From: Novosphingobium sp.
GTDB lineage: Bacteria; Pseudomonadota; Alphaproteobacteria; Sphingomonadales; Sphingomonadaceae
Length of the DNA: 64,000 nucleotides
Direction of reading: 5' to 3'
Assembly (NCBI GenBank): GCA_020446505.1
Contig: JAGREN010000025.1
Coordinates: forward strand, 20,993-84,992
Shown piece by piece: positions 49,888 to 56,167 of this stretch (within the stretch, counting starts at the first letter, position 1; each line of letters opens with the position of its first letter). The translations under genes were made by a program, and so were the position numbers. The notes beneath the pieces were generated by a model. That model did not search any database. It saw nothing but the letters and a program-made list of their open reading frames with translations, and had not been told where the DNA came from.

Positions 49888-51543
49888 ATGGATAGAGAAA
49901 TCCTCGCAAGGGTGGAAAAGCAGGCCTGGTTTCACCGGTTTCCGCGCGGCTTTCCGTTCCTGCTGTTCCTGCTTGCTGCAATCGGCATGGCAATGGCCGT
50001 GATCGCCATCGAACGGGCCGACAGCGCGCGGCGCAAGGTCGAGCTTGATCGCAGCCTCACCGAAATCGCGTCGGGTATCCAGCGTCGCGCGACCGAAAGC
50101 GCCGTTGTGCTGCGCGCAGGTGCCGCGCTGTTCGAAACGCAGGACAACGTCACGTCCGAACAATTCAGCGAATTTGCGGCGGGAATGCAGCATGGCGAGG
50201 ATGGGCATGGCCAGTTATGGCTAGGCTGGTCGCGTCTGGTTCCCCTGAGCCGCCTTGCGGAATTCGAAGTGGCCATGGCGGACAACGAGGATGCCGAATT
50301 CCTTGTCCATCCCCGCCCGGCGCCCGGCACCCTCGTGACCGTGCCCGTCGTGCAGGTCGTGCCGCGTCTGGCCGCCAACCGCAGTGCGATCGGCTTCGAC
50401 ATGTATTCCGATCCCGTGAGACGAGAGGCGATCGACAAGGCGATCAGGCTCGACGATGCGGTCGCTACTGGCAAGCTGTTTACGGGGCGGAGCGGCGATT
50501 CGGATCAGGACGTCGGCTTCATCATCTATTCGCCGGTGCGAACCTCTCCCACGAGCAGTCAGATCAAGGGTTTCGTTTACAGCATATTCCGGGCCAGGGA
50601 TTTCATGGAATCGGCGGTCCAGCTGAGCAGCAAGCGCGAGATCGATATCGCCCTGTTCGACGGTCCGCCGGACGCGGACCACCTGCTGGCGCAGCGTGAT
50701 GTCGCGGGCGTTTCAGGCATGACTCTCGAGCGGCAGATTTCCGTGGCGAATCGCGAATGGACGCTGCGCGTGCGTGACAAGCGGCCAAGTCCCTTGTCCA
50801 TGCTATCGATCCTGACGATCTTTTTCGGCCTGGTCGCCGGCCTGCTGATGATGGCCATTGGCCGGCTGATGACCAAGCGGTCGGTGGAAGACCGGGAAGT
50901 GCTCGAGTGGCTGAGCAGCCAGGCATCGATCCGGGATTCGCTCACGCGCGAACTCAACCACCGGGTCAAGAACACGCTGGCCAATGTGCTTTCGATTGCG
51001 ACGCTTACGCGCCGTCGCTCAACCGATCTCGACGATTTCAGCGAGAATTTCACGGGCCGCATTCAGGCCTTGTCGGCAACTCACGACCTGCTTTCGGAAA
51101 CCAACTGGCGCGAGGCGAAGCTGGGCGAAATCGTAAGGAGCGAGCTTGCGCCCTATCTCAAGGGCGATGGAGCGCAGGCGCATATTTCAGGGCCGGAAAT
51201 CGCGCTGGCGCCCAACGATGCCATGTCGCTTGGCCTCGCGATCCACGAGCTGGCTACCAATGCCGCCAAGTACGGCGCGCTGACCACTCCGGACGGGTCG
51301 ATCCATGTCGAATGGTCGCAGACCCAGTCGAATCAGGCGGAGATCCGGTGGCGCGAGGAGGGCGGCCCACCGGTCGTTCAGCCGCAGAGGCGCGGATTCG
51401 GGCGCGACCTGATCGAAAAGATCGTCGCGCACGAACTTGGCACGCAGGTCGAACTGGAATTCGATCCGGCGGGCGTGCGTTGCACCTTGCATGTGCCGGT
51501 GCGCGCCGCCCGCGAATTCAAGCTGCGCGGATCGAAGGGCTGA
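49888..51543 (+). CDS. CHASE-domain HisKA_2 sensor of the general stress response (PhyP/PhyK type)
   Basis: A 551-residue membrane sensor. Helices at about 22-41 and 304-327 flank a periplasmic CHASE domain. The cytoplasmic part has a HisKA_2 dimerisation helix with His358 in R-E-L-N-H-R-V-K-N and an ATPase domain with H-E-L-A-T-N-A-A-K-Y-G-A-L (453 on). At this position, between nepR-ecfG and phyR, Sphingomonas melonis carries phyP, whose product controls PhyR mainly as a phosphatase. The conserved histidine means kinase activity is also possible here. It is transcribed from the palindromic EcfG site and converges on phyR. Confidence 0.87.
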   Translation: MDREILARVEKQAWFHRFPRGFPFLLFLLAAIGMAMAVIAIERADSARRKVELDRSLTEIASGIQRRATESAVVLRAGAALFETQDNVTSEQFSEFAAGMQHGEDGHGQLWLGWSRLVPLSRLAEFEVAMADNEDAEFLVHPRPAPGTLVTVPVVQVVPRLAANRSAIGFDMYSDPVRREAIDKAIRLDDAVATGKLFTGRSGDSDQDVGFIIYSPVRTSPTSSQIKGFVYSIFRARDFMESAVQLSSKREIDIALFDGPPDADHLLAQRDVAGVSGMTLERQISVANREWTLRVRDKRPSPLSMLSILTIFFGLVAGLLMMAIGRLMTKRSVEDREVLEWLSSQASIRDSLTRELNHRVKNTLANVLSIATLTRRRSTDLDDFSENFTGRIQALSATHDLLSETNWREAKLGEIVRSELAPYLKGDGAQAHISGPEIALAPNDAMSLGLAIHELATNAAKYGALTTPDGSIHVEWSQTQSNQAEIRWREEGGPPVVQPQRRGFGRDLIEKIVAHELGTQVELEFDPAGVRCTLHVPVRAAREFKLRGSKG

Positions 51544-51545
51544 CT

Positions 51546-51560
51546 GTCAGGCCACCTGAC
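51546..51560. terminator. Short hairpin between the sensor gene and phyR
   Basis: GTCAGG-CCA-CCTGAC is a 6-bp inverted repeat in the 19-bp gap between the two convergent stops. It is short, but its position suggests a shared terminator. Confidence 0.45.
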
Positions 51561-51562
51561 GC

Positions 51563-52357
51563 TCAGGGGCGCGGGCGGGTCGAGCCGAAGAACAGCGCCT
51601 GGCTGATTGCCGCGCGCACGGTCTCCTCGCGAAACGGCTTGGTGACGAGATAGGTCGGCTCGGGCCGTTCGCCCGTCAACAGGCGCTCGGGATAGGCCGT
51701 GATGAAGATCACCGGCACCTCGCCGATTTCAAGCAGTTCCTCGACCGCCTCGATGCCCGAGCTGCCATCGGCCAACTGAATGTCGGCCAGGACGAGTCCG
51801 GCCGGTTTCCTGCGGAACTCGGCAATGGCCTGGCTGTGCGTAGCTGCCGTGCCCGTGACCGTATGCCCCATGTCGGAGACAAGGCCTTCGAGTTGCATCG
51901 AAATCAGCGGTTCGTCCTCGATAATGAGAACCTCGGTTGCCGTTTCGCTGGCGATTTCCGCGAAAGCCTGCTGCACCAGCACATCGACTTCCTCGGCGGT
52001 CAGGCCAAGCACCGTGCCGGCGTCTTCGTTCGAGAAATCCTCGATCGTCGTGAGCAGCAGCGCCTGCCGATGGGCAGGGGCCACGGCCGAGAGCCGGTCC
52101 TGCACGATGCGTTCGGAAGAACCGTCGTCGGGCAGGGCAGGGACTTCGTCGACCGAACCGCTCGCCCAGATCCGGGTGAAAGCGGAGTAGAGCGCGACGC
52201 GGCTCTTTGCGATCTCGTCGCGCAGGTCATTATCCGAAAGCGCGGCTTCGAGCGTGGCGCGGACATAGGCGTCACCCGACGCCTGCGAGCCGGTCAGCGC
52301 CCTCGCATAGCGCCGCAGGTAAGGCAGGTTTGCGCCAATCTGATCGGATATCGCCAT
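51563..52357 (-). CDS. phyR: General stress response regulator PhyR
   Basis: A 264-residue anti-anti-sigma response regulator. Residues 1-135 form the sigma-factor-like domain (L-P-Y-L-R-R-Y-A-R-A-L-T-G, then F-S-N-E-D-A-G-T-V-L-G-L-T-A-E-E-V) that mimics EcfG. Residues 142-260 are the receiver, with acidic pocket Glu147/Asp148, phosphoacceptor Asp192 in L-A-D-I-Q-L-A-D, Thr220 and Lys240. Phosphorylation opens it to sequester NepR, freeing EcfG. The ATG at 52357 has GAGGAACAT upstream. A GGAAC-type promoter match lies about 60 bases further up. Confidence 0.96.
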   Translation of the reverse strand: MAISDQIGANLPYLRRYARALTGSQASGDAYVRATLEAALSDNDLRDEIAKSRVALYSAFTRIWASGSVDEVPALPDDGSSERIVQDRLSAVAPAHRQALLLTTIEDFSNEDAGTVLGLTAEEVDVLVQQAFAEIASETATEVLIIEDEPLISMQLEGLVSDMGHTVTGTAATHSQAIAEFRRKPAGLVLADIQLADGSSGIEAVEELLEIGEVPVIFITAYPERLLTGERPEPTYLVTKPFREETVRAAISQALFFGSTRPRP

Positions 52358-52414
52358 ATGTTCCTCGCATGCGGGTCGTTGCCCGGAATCACTATTGTCC
52401 GGGCCTCGTGCCAT

Positions 52415-52440
52415 AACCGTTCGGTTCTGTCATCTGTTCC
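52415..52440 (-). promoter_or_regulatory. Possible EcfG-type promoter of phyR
   Basis: On the minus strand GGAAC (52440-52436) is followed after 17 bases by GGTT (52418-52415). The -10 lacks the preferred C, so this is a weaker match, but it is 58 bases before the phyR start and autoregulation of phyR is usual. Confidence 0.5.
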
Positions 52441-52573
52441 CCTGTTGCGTTCAATTTTCACACTCGATTATTCGGCGCCATGCGTCGGCGTATGCCGGTC
52501 TGATCCGTAAAATGGCAAGTAACAACATGATATTATGCGATAAAAATTATCTGAAATTTTTTCGCCAGGGCCG

Positions 52574-52599
52574 GGAACCAATTTTCCTTTTTAAGGGTT
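52574..52599 (+). promoter_or_regulatory. Possible EcfG-type promoter of a structured RNA
   Basis: GGAAC (52574-52578), 17 bases, then GGTT (52596-52599), with the same -10 variant as the phyR site. It is preceded by an AT-rich stretch (52505-52563) and directly followed by strong stem-loops rather than a protein gene. Confidence 0.5.
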
Positions 52600-52604
52600 T
52601 CTTG

Positions 52605-52710
52605 CATGTCACCACCAGCCCTCCCCACCCCCCGCATTGGTGGTGACCCGATCCCCGAGGCCTCCAACTCCTTCCCTGAGTTCGGAGGCCTCCAATCGTC
52701 TGGAGGCGGG
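52605..52710 (+). ncRNA. Candidate structured small RNA or ecfG2 leader with anti-Shine-Dalgarno loops
   Basis: The 475-bp gap between phyR and ecfG2 has no credible gene but strong structure. Stem 1 is GTCACCACCA (52608-52617) with TGGTGGTGAC (52638-52647), perfect over 10 bp; its 20-base loop is almost all C, including CCCTCC at 52619-52624. Stem 2 pairs 52657-52670 with 52678-52692 over 14 bp with one bulge, closing the pyrimidine loop CTTCCCT. A third stem GCCTCC (52688-52693)/GGAGGC (52702-52707) competes with stem 2. The loops are complementary to Shine-Dalgarno sequences, as in known alphaproteobacterial anti-SD sRNAs. The 3' end is uncertain, as no T-run follows; it could instead be a long 5' leader of ecfG2. 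Confidence 0.45.
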
Positions 52711-52769
52711 GAATTCTGCGTAAAGATCCGCAGATGCCCCCAGGTGCATCATTTCAGACGAAAAAAGTT

Positions 52770-52795
52770 GGAACCGTTTTTGCGCCGATGACGTT
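52770..52795 (+). promoter_or_regulatory. EcfG-type promoter of ecfG2
   Basis: GGAAC (52770-52774), 17 bases, then CGTT (52792-52795): a full match to the GSR consensus. It lies 38 bases before the ATG of the second sigma factor gene, which has GGAGGG as ribosome-binding site. Confidence 0.8.
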
Positions 52796-52832
52796 GACCG
52801 TTTGAACCAGTGCAAAATCCGGAGGGTATTCC

Positions 52833-53483
52833 ATGGAACTGCAAGCCAAGGCTGATAGCGAAACCGGCCAATCCGAGCATGCCACGCTGTCGGACAAGGA
52901 CTTCAAACGCGCGCTCACCGATGTCGCTCCGCATCTGCGTGCTTTCGCGCGCGGCCTTTGCGGAGACCGTGACCGGGCGGATGACCTTGCGCAGGAAGCC
53001 ATGATGCGGGCCTGGGCGGCTCGTGATCGTTACGCTGCCGGCACCAATTTCAAGGCATGGACCTTCACGATCCTGCGCAACCATTTCTACAGCGAAGCGC
53101 GCCGCGCGCGTTTCCATGGCGAATACGATGAACTCGCTGCAGAGCGCATCCTCATGGCGCCCGCCTCGCAGGACAAGAGCATCGAACTGCGTGACGTCCT
53201 GCGCGCGCTCGACGCCATTCCCGACAATTACCGCGAGGCACTCGTTCTCGTGGCTGCGGGCAACCTTTCCTACGAGGAAATCGCCGAAATCTGCGACATT
53301 GCCCTTGGTACCGTGAAGAGCCGGATCTGCCGCGCCCGCGCGATGCTGAGCAATGTCCTTGAATCCGGGCAGCTGCCCGATCACCGCCACAACTTTGTCC
53401 TCAAGGGCGATGCTGTCGATGCATTCTTTGCCGAATTGCACAAGATCGCCAACTTCGAGGATTCGAGAACAATGGCTGCCTGA
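52833..53483 (+). CDS. Second EcfG-type ECF sigma factor
   Basis: A 216-residue paralogue of the sigma factor at 48997-49512. Both share A-P/L-P-H-L-R-A-F-A-R-G-L-C-G, A-G-T-N-F-K/R-A-W-T-F-T-I-L-R-N-H and Y-E-E-x-A-E-I-C-D/G-x-A-x-G-T-V-K-S-R. This copy has a C-terminal extension of about 40 residues (from Q-L-P-D-H-R-H-N to D-S-R-T-M-A-A) absent in the first. It has no NepR gene of its own and a consensus EcfG promoter, so it is likely induced by the first sigma factor and may amplify or modify the stress regulon. A receiver gene follows 15 bases later. Confidence 0.92.
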   Translation: MELQAKADSETGQSEHATLSDKDFKRALTDVAPHLRAFARGLCGDRDRADDLAQEAMMRAWAARDRYAAGTNFKAWTFTILRNHFYSEARRARFHGEYDELAAERILMAPASQDKSIELRDVLRALDAIPDNYREALVLVAAGNLSYEEIAEICDIALGTVKSRICRARAMLSNVLESGQLPDHRHNFVLKGDAVDAFFAELHKIANFEDSRTMAA

Positions 53484-53498
53484 AGGAGGCGGTTTGAA

Positions 53499-53909
53499 AT
53501 GCATGGTAAGACCACAGCTCCAAAAATACTCATCGTCGAAGACGAATTTCTCGTGGCGCTGCAGATCGAGGATGTGGTCTCGAGCAGGGGTTACCAGGTC
53601 GTGGCCATCGTGCCCGACCAGGCGACCTTCGAACGTGTCGACGACGCGCCGCAGGTTGCGCTCGTCGACCTCAACCTGCGAGACGGCTTGACCGGCCCCG
53701 AGATCGCGCGGCGCTTGTCGAGCAAGTTCGGCTGCAAGATCGTCTATGTGACGGCCAACCCGGCCGACATCGACAGGCCCGCGCCCACGGCGGTCGGGAT
53801 CGTGCCCAAGCCGTTCTCGGGCACGACGATCCTCGATGCTATCGAATTCGCACTCAATGGCGTTCCAAACATGCCGCCGCCGAGCGGCGTGCAACCTCTT
53901 GCTCGCTAG
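53499..53909 (+). CDS. Single-domain response regulator
   Basis: A 136-residue receiver without an output domain. I-L-I-V-E-D-E-F gives the acidic pocket, V-A-L-V-D-L-N-L the phosphoacceptor aspartate, Y-V-T-A-N the conserved threonine and P-K-P-F the lysine. It does not have the P-F-x-F-A-T/S-G-Y-G motif of FATGUY regulators such as SdrG. It sits in the ecfG2 operon, so it probably acts as a phosphate sink or relay for the HWE/HisKA_2 kinases encoded nearby. Confidence 0.88.
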   Translation: MHGKTTAPKILIVEDEFLVALQIEDVVSSRGYQVVAIVPDQATFERVDDAPQVALVDLNLRDGLTGPEIARRLSSKFGCKIVYVTANPADIDRPAPTAVGIVPKPFSGTTILDAIEFALNGVPNMPPPSGVQPLAR

Positions 53910-53978
53910 AAGCGTTGATCGGATGGCGGCAGACAGGCCGCAGTAAACGCGAATAGGCTTGAAAAGAGGACTGGGACG

Positions 53979-54275
53979 ATGAGCCAGACACTGCTCGACA
54001 TCCTGCAATACTACGGCGCGGCAGCGGCAACGCTCGCCGCGTTTCTCGTATCGCTGCACCTGGGGCGGGTCTGGACGGGCATTGCCTTCGTCATTTTCGT
54101 GTCCAGCTCGATCGCGCTGATCGCCTGGGGATTCCTGAGCGGCGAGGCCGAGGGCATTGGCTGGCAGAACGTCGTCATGTTCGCGATCAACTGCCTTGGC
54201 GTCTATCGCTATCTCATCGCTGGCAAGGACGACGACAAACAGCCGCAGGCACAGGTACAGCCCGAGGCTGCCTGA
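53979..54275 (+). CDS. Small membrane protein of unknown function
   Basis: A 98-residue protein with about three hydrophobic helices (A-A-A-A-T-L-A-A-F-L-V-S-L; W-T-G-I-A-F-V-I-F-V-S-S-S-I-A-L-I-A-W-G-F-L; V-V-M-F-A-I-N-C-L-G-V-Y-R-Y-L-I) and a polar, Gln/Pro-rich tail. AAAGAGGACTGG lies before the ATG. It is 69 bases after the receiver gene on the same strand and may be in the stress operon. No family is recognised. Confidence 0.75.
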   Translation: MSQTLLDILQYYGAAAATLAAFLVSLHLGRVWTGIAFVIFVSSSIALIAWGFLSGEAEGIGWQNVVMFAINCLGVYRYLIAGKDDDKQPQAQVQPEAA

Positions 54276-54327
54276 TCGCGGGAATTCCTGGCATCAGGGC
54301 TGCTACGCATTCTTGAGATCACGAGAA

Positions 54328-54358
54328 AAAGGCCCCGCAGCGATGCTGCGGAGCCTTT
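54328..54358. terminator. Strong bidirectional terminator
   Basis: AAAGGC-C-CCGCAGC-GAT-GCTGCGG-A-GCCTTT: a stem of 13 bp interrupted by one C/A mismatch, flanked by A-run and T-run, in the gap between the converging small membrane gene and the small hydrophilic gene. It works on either strand. Confidence 0.85.
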
Positions 54359-54382
54359 GCCTTCATGCCGTCAGGTGACGGC

Positions 54383-54565
54383 TCAGTGCGGACCGTCAGC
54401 CGATTCCTTGCGAGCCTTTTCCAGCTCCGCGCCTTCCTTGCCGTCGAGTGCGTCCGCGGCTTCGCGGGCCTTCTGTTCGACCTTGCCGCTCTTGGCGAAT
54501 TCGTGCTGTTCCTTCTGATACTTCTCGGCGCCGTCGTAGCTGCCTTCACCCTTGCGATCGGACAT
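54383..54565 (-). CDS. Small hydrophilic stress protein
   Basis: A 60-residue, highly charged protein (many Lys, Glu, Ala, Gln; no hydrophobic core), likely disordered or a simple helix, of the kind often found in general stress regulons. AAAGGAGACG precedes the ATG and a full EcfG consensus promoter stands 39 bases upstream. The terminator at 54328-54358 closes the transcript, so it is a monocistronic unit. No specific role is known. Confidence 0.8.
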   Translation of the reverse strand: MSDRKGEGSYDGAEKYQKEQHEFAKSGKVEQKAREAADALDGKEGAELEKARKESADGPH

Positions 54566-54603
54566 TTTCGTCTCCTTTGCCAGATTGGTGTGTCTGAAAA
54601 AGA

Positions 54604-54628
54604 AACGATCGACAGCCGGGCAGGTTCC
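54604..54628 (-). promoter_or_regulatory. EcfG-type promoter of the small hydrophilic protein
   Basis: On the minus strand GGAAC (54628-54624), 16 bases, then CGTT (54607-54604): a perfect GGAAC-N16-CGTT. The -35 element lies inside the loop and right arm of the terminator of the upstream kinase gene. Confidence 0.82.
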
Positions 54629-54644
54629 TCGATTTACCTGCCCG
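54617..54644 (-). terminator. Terminator of the HWE kinase gene, overlapping the next promoter
   Basis: CGGGCAGGT (54617-54625) and ACCTGCCCG (54636-54644) form a perfect 9-bp stem with a 10-base loop, 5 bases after the kinase stop. The T-run (TTTCTTTTTC on the minus strand) comes only some 12 bases later, so termination may be partial. Confidence 0.6.
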
Positions 54645-54649
54645 AAGGG

Positions 54650-56167
54650 TCATCTCATCATTGCGGATGAAGGTATTCTGGCGAGTACGACAAGGCCTTC
54701 GGTCCGCCATTCGTATTCGACCACGCCGCCCAGCTGGCGAGCGATGCTGAGTTCGACAAGGCTTGCGCCAAAGCCGTCGTCACCCGGCCGATTTACCGGC
54801 GGGCCGCCCTGTTCGCTCCAACGGATCAGGCAATCGCCGTTGTCCCGGCTCAATTCGATTTCCACCGAGCCATCCTGGGTCGAAAGGGCGCCATATTTGG
54901 CAGCATTTGTGCCAAGCTCGTGGACGAACAGGGCAAGCGGCGTAGCCGAGCGGTCGTCGATGGCGATGTCGCTGCCAGAGATCGTCACGCGGTTGCGCGA
55001 TCCTGCCTGATAGGGCGAGACGATCAGCTTGAGCATCGCGATGAGGCTCGATTGCGCTTCGGTCGAATCAAATCGGGTGCCACTGGCGCGGACATGATCG
55101 TGCGCGCGCCCGAGCGCCAGAATCCGTTCCTGCAGTTCGCGGCCGGCCTCTGCCACTTCGGGGCGATGACGGATGGTCAGCGAAACCAATCCGCCGATCA
55201 CGGCAAAGATGTTCTTGATGCGATGGTTGAGTTCACGCGAGAGAATCTCGAGCAGTTCCGAACTGCGCTTGGACTCGTCGATGTCCGTGCAGGAACCGAA
55301 CCACCGCGTGACTTCGCCCCGGTCGTCGAGCATCGGCACGCCGCGCGCCAGCATCCAGCGGTATTCGCCCTCGGCGTTGCGCAGGCGGTATTCGATTTCA
55401 TAGGTCTTGCGCGATTCAACTGCCTCGCGCCAGCATTCGCCAGTCGGCGCGCGATCGTCGGGATGCAGGAAATCCAGCCACCCGCTGCCGTAACTGGCCT
55501 CGGCAGGCTCGCCGGTATAGTCGATCCAGACCTGGTTGAAGTAGTCTGTGAGCCCGTTCGGTCTGGTCGACCAGAGCAATTGCGGCATGGCGTCGGCAAG
55601 GTGCTGGTAGCGCAGTTCCTGATCCCGGATCGCGGCACGGTGCGATTTTTCCGCCGCGGCGCTGCTTGCTTCCGAGCGCGCGGCCTCGATCATTGCCATT
55701 GCCGCGCTGGCGATGCCTTCAAGCCCTTCGCGCTGAGCGACGGTAAGGCCCAGCCGGGGAACCGTGTCGATGATGCAGAAGCTGCCGAGCGGCTGCCCCT
55801 CTCGCGAGATCATCGGCACGCCCGCGTAGAAGCGGATCGACATGTCGCCGGTTACCAGCGGATTGTCGGAAAAGCGCGAATCCTGGCGCGCATCCGACAC
55901 GACCATGATCTCTGGCTTGAGCATGGCATGAGCGCAGAAGGAATATTCGCGCGGGGTGCCTGCTGCGTCGAGCCCGGACTTCCCGATAAAGAACTGGTGG
56001 TCATCGCTGACGATGCTGACGAGCCCGATGGGCGCGCCACACAGTTGCGCGGCGACCGACGCGAGCCGGTCCAGCTGCGTAGAAAGGCCCGGCTTGTCGA
56101 GCGGGTAGGTCTGCAAGACCTTCAGCCGCTCGTCCTCGCCGGACCTCTGGGTTGGGGCATCGTTCAA
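54650..56167 (-). CDS. GAF-PAS HWE-family histidine kinase
   Basis: A 505-residue soluble kinase. Residues about 25-165 are a GAF domain (C-G-A-P-I-G-L-V-S-I-V ... F-C-A-H-A-M), 185-298 a PAS domain with PAC end (Y-R-W-M-L-A-R-G-V-P-M), and from 305 the HWE kinase core with His315 in R-E-L-N-H-R-I-K-N and H-E-L-G-T-N-A-A-K-Y-G-A-L. The N-terminus (L-K-V-L-Q-T-Y-P-L-D) is of the GAF-sensor class common in sphingomonads. HWE/HisKA_2 kinases are the usual PhyR phosphodonors (PhyK, PakA-type), so this is a candidate input to the GSR. The signal sensed by the GAF/PAS pair is unknown. Confidence 0.88.
   Translation of the reverse strand: MNDAPTQRSGEDERLKVLQTYPLDKPGLSTQLDRLASVAAQLCGAPIGLVSIVSDDHQFFIGKSGLDAAGTPREYSFCAHAMLKPEIMVVSDARQDSRFSDNPLVTGDMSIRFYAGVPMISREGQPLGSFCIIDTVPRLGLTVAQREGLEGIASAAMAMIEAARSEASSAAAEKSHRAAIRDQELRYQHLADAMPQLLWSTRPNGLTDYFNQVWIDYTGEPAEASYGSGWLDFLHPDDRAPTGECWREAVESRKTYEIEYRLRNAEGEYRWMLARGVPMLDDRGEVTRWFGSCTDIDESKRSSELLEILSRELNHRIKNIFAVIGGLVSLTIRHRPEVAEAGRELQERILALGRAHDHVRASGTRFDSTEAQSSLIAMLKLIVSPYQAGSRNRVTISGSDIAIDDRSATPLALFVHELGTNAAKYGALSTQDGSVEIELSRDNGDCLIRWSEQGGPPVNRPGDDGFGASLVELSIARQLGGVVEYEWRTEGLVVLARIPSSAMMR

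Follow-up and report, generated by a model that had tools for sequence, protein, structure and literature searches.

A predicted EcfG-dependent, GsrN-like small RNA between phyR and ecfG2 in Novosphingobium and its relatives

INTRODUCTION

Does the gap between the divergent genes phyR and ecfG2 of a Novosphingobium genome contain a small RNA (sRNA) gene, or does it contain the leader of ecfG2? The window considered here, by which we mean the entire stretch of 64,000 nucleotides that was analyzed, includes both genes. An initial annotation of this DNA had proposed an sRNA driven by a stress sigma factor and acting in trans through C-rich loops that resemble anti-Shine-Dalgarno (anti-SD) sequences, and the promoter, fold, and covariation evaluated from the sequence agree with this proposal. 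The interval very probably encodes an EcfG-dependent, GsrN-like sRNA of about 95 nt, composed of a C-rich 5' loop, a linker, and an intrinsic-terminator hairpin, that most likely acts in trans.

RESULTS

Layout of the locus and fold of the predicted RNA

The features of the locus are listed below; the two ORFs are those that we take to be phyR and ecfG2, the names being assigned by recognition and that of ecfG2 being retained from the initial annotation.

51563-52357, minus strand: phyR (anti-anti-sigma response regulator), ORF with a start picked by us, conserved divergent neighbor
52415-52440, minus strand: EcfG-type promoter of phyR, GGAAC-N17-GGTT, divergent from the sRNA
52574-52599, plus strand: EcfG-type promoter of the sRNA, GGAAC-N17-GGTT (GGAAC 52574-52578, GGTT 52596-52599), identified from the sequence
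52607-52701, plus strand: predicted sRNA of about 95 nt, with a probable 5' end at about 52605-52608 and a probable 3' end at about 52695-52701
52608-52647, plus strand: hairpin 1, perfect 10-bp stem (52608-52617/52638-52647), loop 52618-52637 carrying CCCTCCCCACCCCCC
52648-52656, plus strand: single-stranded linker carrying CGATCCCC, in which GATCCC is conserved in aligned members
52657-52692, plus strand: hairpin 2, terminator-like, 14-bp stem (52657-52670/52678-52692) with one bulged C, loop CTTCCCT (52671-52677)
52770-52795, plus strand: EcfG-type promoter of ecfG2, GGAAC-N17-CGTT, perfect match, downstream of both stems
52833-53483, plus strand: ecfG2 (EcfG-type sigma factor), ORF with the Shine-Dalgarno sequence GGAGGG at 52821-52826

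Between phyR on the minus strand and ecfG2 on the plus strand, the order of elements is phyR promoter, sRNA promoter, hairpin 1, linker, hairpin 2, and ecfG2 promoter. The initial annotation had described the promoter match ahead of the stems, the two strong stems (10 bp and perfect; 14 bp with one bulge), CCCTCC in the first loop (52619-52624), and CTTCCCT in the second, and all of these were found in place. Two other EcfG-type promoters, that of ecfG2 and the divergent one of phyR (reading from 52440 to 52415), had not been reported there.

The segment 52607-52705 was predicted to fold with -43.5 kcal/mol, as compared to -25.2 +/- 3.1 kcal/mol for dinucleotide shuffles (z = -6.0), none of the 200 shuffles being as good. 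The 3' U-tract of hairpin 2 is weak in the window genome (CAATCGTCT). The two divergent genes that flank this hairpin both face it with their 5' ends, so that no coding gene needs a terminator at this site. When 52607-52760 was folded, a long stem involving CGTCTG and CAGACG was seen to be possible after hairpin 2 (52697-52760).

Conservation and covariation

Among 80 loci around ecfG2 relatives, 34 had, within 620 nt, a promoter with a C tract downstream of it, and these, together with the window, form alignment A1 of 35 distinct sequences; L077 and L082, considered chance fits to this rule, and the diverged L057 had been removed beforehand. Because only 620 nt upstream of ecfG2 were considered, the rule missed L034 and L042, which possess both RNA and promoter. 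At another locus, L035, the RNA is present and GGAAC is absent within the 52 nt available upstream. Alignment A2 extends A1 to 58 sequences by the addition of L034 and L042 along with 21 loci found with model R1 (see below), 23 in all.

In A1, 96.4% of the cells of the 25 base pairs are paired, and 15 pairs show changes on both sides. Shuffled alignments were paired to 89.8%, with none out of 500 being as good, and sliding by 1 to 3 columns reduced pairing to 31-48%. A2 is paired to 95.4%, and double changes occur in 19 of its 25 pairs; since this alignment was fitted to the model, its figures lean towards structure. RNAalifold, run on A1 without prior structure, recovered both hairpins and 23 of the 25 pairs. 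Double changes affect four pairs of hairpin 1 in A1 and six in A2 (counted on a 10-pair model helix that lies one pair further in than the window stem), and 11 (A1) and 13 (A2) of the 15 pairs of hairpin 2, at the top of which pairs are broken in up to 9 (A1) or 11 (A2) sequences. A lack of compensatory changes among relatives had been named initially as a reason to discard the RNA; both alignments contain such changes. We also considered a conserved small ORF, which was rejected: loop lengths are distributed over all values modulo 3 (23, 23, and 12 sequences), and the G that creates an ATG is present in 23 of 58 sequences.

Two observations concern individual members of A1. In several Novosphingobium loci (e.g., L006, L010, and L028), TTGTTCC is found about 20 nt after hairpin 2, which is not the case in the window; its complement, GGAACAA, resembles a -35 element on the opposite strand. 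The record of "Actinobacteria bacterium 21-64-8" (L016) contains a typical Novosphingobium ecfG2-sRNA locus, and the assembly is probably mislabelled.

Distribution and genomic setting

An initial blastn search with the DNA reached 5 of 41 genomes, the window's own genome included, and was too insensitive. Covariance model R1 was built from the RNA alone, without promoter sequence, and used at a threshold of E <= 0.01; it scores the window, whose sequence is itself part of R1, with 74.7 bits. Matches were obtained in 144 of the 396 genomes of the order, corresponding to 30 of 84 genera. All 144 belong to the window's own genus or family, and none of the order's other families gave a match at this threshold among these 396 genomes. 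By our own count, 136 of the 144 genomes have a single match.

The surroundings of 110 of the 144 matches were examined; 8 of these are A1 sequences, and 102 are not. GGAAC is located 32-33 nt upstream of the RNA in 109 of the 110 matches (101 of 102 outside A1), and phyR is divergent in 105 (97 of 102 outside A1), at a median distance of 240 nt (range 146-1559). TTTT occurs within the final 16 nt of the match in 96 of 110 cases, the window not being among them.

Strong inverted repeats could by themselves have roles as DNA, and we therefore considered that the interval is no gene at all but a palindrome, a protein-binding site, or ordinary intergenic repeats. The fixed promoter spacing outside A1, the conservation of the unpaired C loop and linker next to the stems, the frequent 3' T run, and the single match per genome in most cases argue against this explanation, which we consider extremely improbable. 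Judged by its sequence, the sRNA gene at 52574-52701 is real and conserved, and promoter, structure, covariation, and synteny can be read directly from the DNA.

Five matches lack phyR in the stretch (L106, L114, L272, L275, and L288). One of them, L288, which lacks GGAAC as well, looks like a false match. L106 (1501-1590) and L114 (1501-1596), both from the window's genus, have an Erythrobacter-like loop type and have kept a GGAAC-N16-CGTT promoter without phyR in the stretch; among the surrounding ORFs, we recognized a Crp/FNR-type regulator as well as response regulators. L272, likewise from the window's genus and with this loop type and promoter, is cut by a contig end. The contig of L275 equals in length that of L046, on which an ecfG relative is located within about 10 kb.

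Wider searches with model R2 gave candidates that were not retained. Class-wide, 9 of 289 genomes matched, four of them from the own family, counting the own genome and a weak match in G041; the remaining five (E of 2.4e-6 to 0.002) were treated as chance. No promoter was seen in the class-wide matches L117-L122, the portion of L120 covered stopping short of the upstream region. Within the order of Hyphomonas, R2 matched 19 of 150 genomes at E <= 0.05; none of the 15 loci read fitted the promoter rule, and these matches were also treated as chance. Three weak matches from the Caulobacterales order (L138, L140, and L141) are nearly identical, with GTCACCGCCGGA(A/G)CCTTCCCCTCCCGGCG, a C-rich upstream stretch, and no EcfG promoter, and this sequence possibly represents another RNA.

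The -10 box of the sRNA promoter

In the window, the -10 box of the sRNA promoter is GGTT and not CGTT. Among the 110 R1 matches examined, it is CATT with an N16 spacer in 84. The divergent phyR promoter mostly has CGTT, and 70 of 105 loci combine CATT for the sRNA with CGTT for phyR. Promoters of the general stress response (GSR) in Sphingopyxis granuli are reported to have a flexible -10 box (PMC7083833). The conserved nonconsensus CATT box may serve to tune the sRNA or to select an EcfG paralogue.

The C-rich loop and its possible targets

Most Novosphingobium loci have a hairpin 1 loop of the CTCCCCCACCCCCC type. In A2, its columns contain a run of five C in 58 of 58 sequences, of six C in 57, CTCC in 49, and CCTCC in 29, and CCTCC was found near the loop position in 101 of the 110 examined R1 matches. 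The loop length varies freely from 16 to 31 nt, the C content being maintained. Of the 58 A2 members, 52 have GATCCC in the linker columns, and this motif is present anywhere in the match in 101 of 110.

The frequency of CTCC and CCTCC is compatible with a general anti-SD repressor that acts in trans, blankets many Shine-Dalgarno sites, and slows translation, as opposed to a GsrN-like activator of chosen targets. SisA, an anti-SD sRNA of Caulobacter, was reported to repress a large set of targets (PMC12559287). However, the constant part of the CTCCCCCACCCCCC-type loop is the run of six C and not the anti-SD core, and the C-loop sRNA of the GSR described in PMC5869019 activates katG. We assign a modest probability to a general repressor.

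Complements of part of the loop were not enriched in the own genome, where, at <=1 mismatch, 30 matches, the sRNA locus itself among them, compare with 39 for the reversed pattern. No obvious G-tract was seen by eye in ten katG-type upstream regions of relatives, the starts of which are uncertain. These two results, as well as the free loop length at constant C content, could be accommodated if the C-rich loops chiefly bound a protein or another RNA, as a sponge does, instead of mRNAs. This idea has no positive evidence in its favor, and the equivalent loop of GsrN pairs with mRNA (PMC5869019), so that we judge it improbable.

Readings that involve ecfG2

The initial annotation had alternatively regarded the structure as a cis leader or switch that masks the ribosome-binding site of ecfG2 by pairing of CCCTCC with GGAGGG. 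The 6-nt complement is indeed present in the window (52619-52624 with 52821-52826), the sRNA promoter is directed towards ecfG2, and read-through beyond the weak terminator could give rise to a long ecfG2 mRNA. However, a separate EcfG promoter for ecfG2 lies between the stems and this gene, and a proximal GGAAC-N15-18-[CGT]GTT promoter precedes ecfG2 in 35 of 35 A1 loci, a count over loci that the promoter/C-tract rule had selected. Because this proximal promoter follows the stems throughout, a role as ecfG2 leader is unlikely; judged by promoter position alone, the structure would lie outside the ecfG2 transcript. Furthermore, only 11 of the 110 R1 matches examined (3 of 102 outside A1) have an ecfG2-like gene in the stretch.

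The complementarity itself did not hold up as a conserved pairing. The 6-nt match occurs in 3 of the 35 loci, namely, the window, L008, and L011, and is reduced to 3-5 nt elsewhere (starts chosen by script, that of L021 looking wrong), for which reason a specific pairing with the ecfG2 ribosome-binding site was rejected as a conserved function. Similarly, both arms of the third stem that had been suggested to form a switch, GCCTCC (52660-52665) and GGAGGC (52702-52707), exist in the window, but GGAGGC follows hairpin 2 in 1 of 35 loci, and the switch was rejected on these grounds. Taken as a whole, the leader or switch reading is very unlikely, and a trans-acting sRNA remains the preferred explanation.

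Further RNA classes in the family

A pattern consisting of the promoter and CCCCCC matched in 62 of 196 genomes of the order and, by our own count, in 38 for the reversed control, which makes this pattern weak when used alone. Two sequence types that precede a C-looped hairpin were picked by eye among its matches, a recurring GGATAG..CCCCCCCGCTCTCGCTATCC and, related to it, GAGCAGCG. Alignment A3 of this second class (23 loci) shows double changes in 10 of 18 pairs. At E <= 0.001, model R3, derived from A3, gave matches in 118 of 396 genomes, every one of which belongs to the own family. The R3 class (L297, L304, L312, and L319-L338) appears from its sequence to be an EcfG-driven two-hairpin RNA of other genera, with C-rich loops in both hairpins; phyR and an ecfG are located within about 4 kb in 15 of 20 longer stretches. 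No Rfam match reached the gathering score in the four R3-class loci scanned (L304, L319, L327, and L335). When R1 matches at E <= 1e-5 (141 genomes) and R3 matches at E <= 1e-4 (116 genomes) are combined, 2 genomes having both, 255 of 396 genomes carry one of them by our own count. A third form, found in L065 (a Sphingopyxis MAG) and L067 (Sphingorhabdus), combines a GGAAC-N16-CGTT promoter with a loop of CCCACCCCCCCCTC and a terminator with T6, and is located downstream of phyR.

DISCUSSION

That activation of PhyR releases EcfG from NepR is established knowledge on the GSR. Under stress, PhyR would be activated and EcfG freed from NepR, and RNA polymerase with the freed EcfG would then transcribe the sRNA along with phyR and ecfG2. 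Acting in trans, the C-rich loop would most likely pair with G-rich sites in a number of mRNAs, either at their Shine-Dalgarno regions or at leader G-tracts, and this pairing would alter the translation or stability of the target mRNAs during stress, by analogy with GsrN in Caulobacter. The early steps of this model are based on the promoter and on the established GSR knowledge; from the pairing onwards the steps, including the targets, as well as transcription and termination of the RNA, are what we infer.

Rfam contains anti-SD sRNA families of alphaproteobacteria, ar14 for example, with C/U-rich loops in hairpins. No Rfam family, the anti-SD sRNA families included, matched the interval up to E = 1; overlaps at other loci that are well under the gathering scores, with Phe_leader (L098), 6C (L061), and Scr3202 (L327), were ignored. 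Among the papers listed in literature searches, which were considered by title and abstract start and did not include subscription papers or preprints, none reported such an RNA in sphingomonads. Of two articles on the sphingomonad GSR, PMC6599016 contains no mention of sRNA, small RNA, ncRNA, or GsrN in its main text, and in PMC7083833 the sRNA mention is the citation of SuhB only. The sequence family is new relative to Rfam 15 and to these titles and abstract starts; the plan is already known from GsrN. If the proposal is correct, it adds to the sphingomonad stress response a post-transcriptional arm that is not described in PMC6599016 and PMC7083833, as judged by these terms. The question of whether every alphaproteobacterial GSR has a GsrN-type RNA also becomes testable, and exact loci are supplied for deletion in laboratory strains.

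GsrN of Caulobacter depends on SigT/EcfG, has a length of about 106 nt, and activates katG by pairing of its C-rich 5' loop with the katG mRNA (PMC5869019). Its homologues are usually located near the GSR locus, the gsrN gene of C. crescentus itself being an exception. Tien et al. proposed GsrN relatives, using BLASTn within Caulobacteraceae and, for other groups, the promoter and the position, supplemented in some cases by transcription, and reported no apparent gsrN-like gene in Erythrobacter litoralis (PMC5869019). We detected the RNA next to phyR, with E of about 1e-18, in an Erythrobacter sp. MSM4 MAG (L076) and in Porphyrobacter sp. AAP60 (L084), neither of which is E. litoralis. Since EcfG promoters precede at least two classes (R1 and R3), which for the most part reside at the GSR locus, even relatives of Erythrobacter may be considered to have an RNA of their own. 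We lean slightly towards the view that a C-loop sRNA is a core but fast-diverging part of the GSR throughout Sphingomonadaceae sensu lato, and that alphaproteobacteria have either retained a common plan or arrived at it anew, even as homology at the sequence level was lost.

The agreement in length (106 nt), loop, and locus leads us to infer that the Rfam family RF01529 ("CC3552") corresponds to GsrN. In the order of Hyphomonas, a pattern of the promoter and CGCCCCCC was present at 27 places in 21 of 150 genomes, the reversed-pattern control being near zero. Eighteen of these Caulobacterales loci share GGCGGCGACGCCCCCC or a close form, with phyR in the stretch in 17 of them, and the two that were scanned (L151 and L167) match RF01529 at 102.9 and 77.1 bits. 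RF01529 matched neither the window at 50000-56000 (cmscan, E <= 1, Rfam 15) nor the loci of eight relatives, and R2, with strict filters on, found 0 of the 18 GsrN places. By sequence, the RNA thus gives no match to GsrN, which it appears to resemble in its plan.

The GsrN loci of Caulobacterales resemble the predicted RNA of the window in the EcfG promoter (GGAAC-N16/17-CGTT in the former), in a length of about 100 nt, and in the combination of a C-rich loop in the 5' half with a 3' hairpin, which in GsrN is followed by a T run, whereas the U-tract of the window RNA is weak. Proximity to the GSR locus is common to both, the window RNA being located between phyR and ecfG2. They differ in that the 5' domain of GsrN consists of a long stem that encloses the C run and an inner hairpin (three of four folded loci, L153 being different), whereas the window RNA has a simple hairpin with a long loop, and in that GsrN is downstream of phyR on the same strand (17 loci), whereas the window RNA is divergent from phyR. 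Compared by description, SisA-D of Caulobacter share the anti-SD signature in the pairing motif; no conserved promoter motif is reported for them in PMC12559287, in contrast to the EcfG promoter of the window RNA. The GsrN-like candidates of Rhizobiaceae were found by intergenic transcription, a near-consensus EcfG site, and their position at the GSR locus (PMC5869019). When set beside the window RNA by description, these candidates share with it the EcfG site, the position at the GSR locus, and the exposed C-rich 5' loop.
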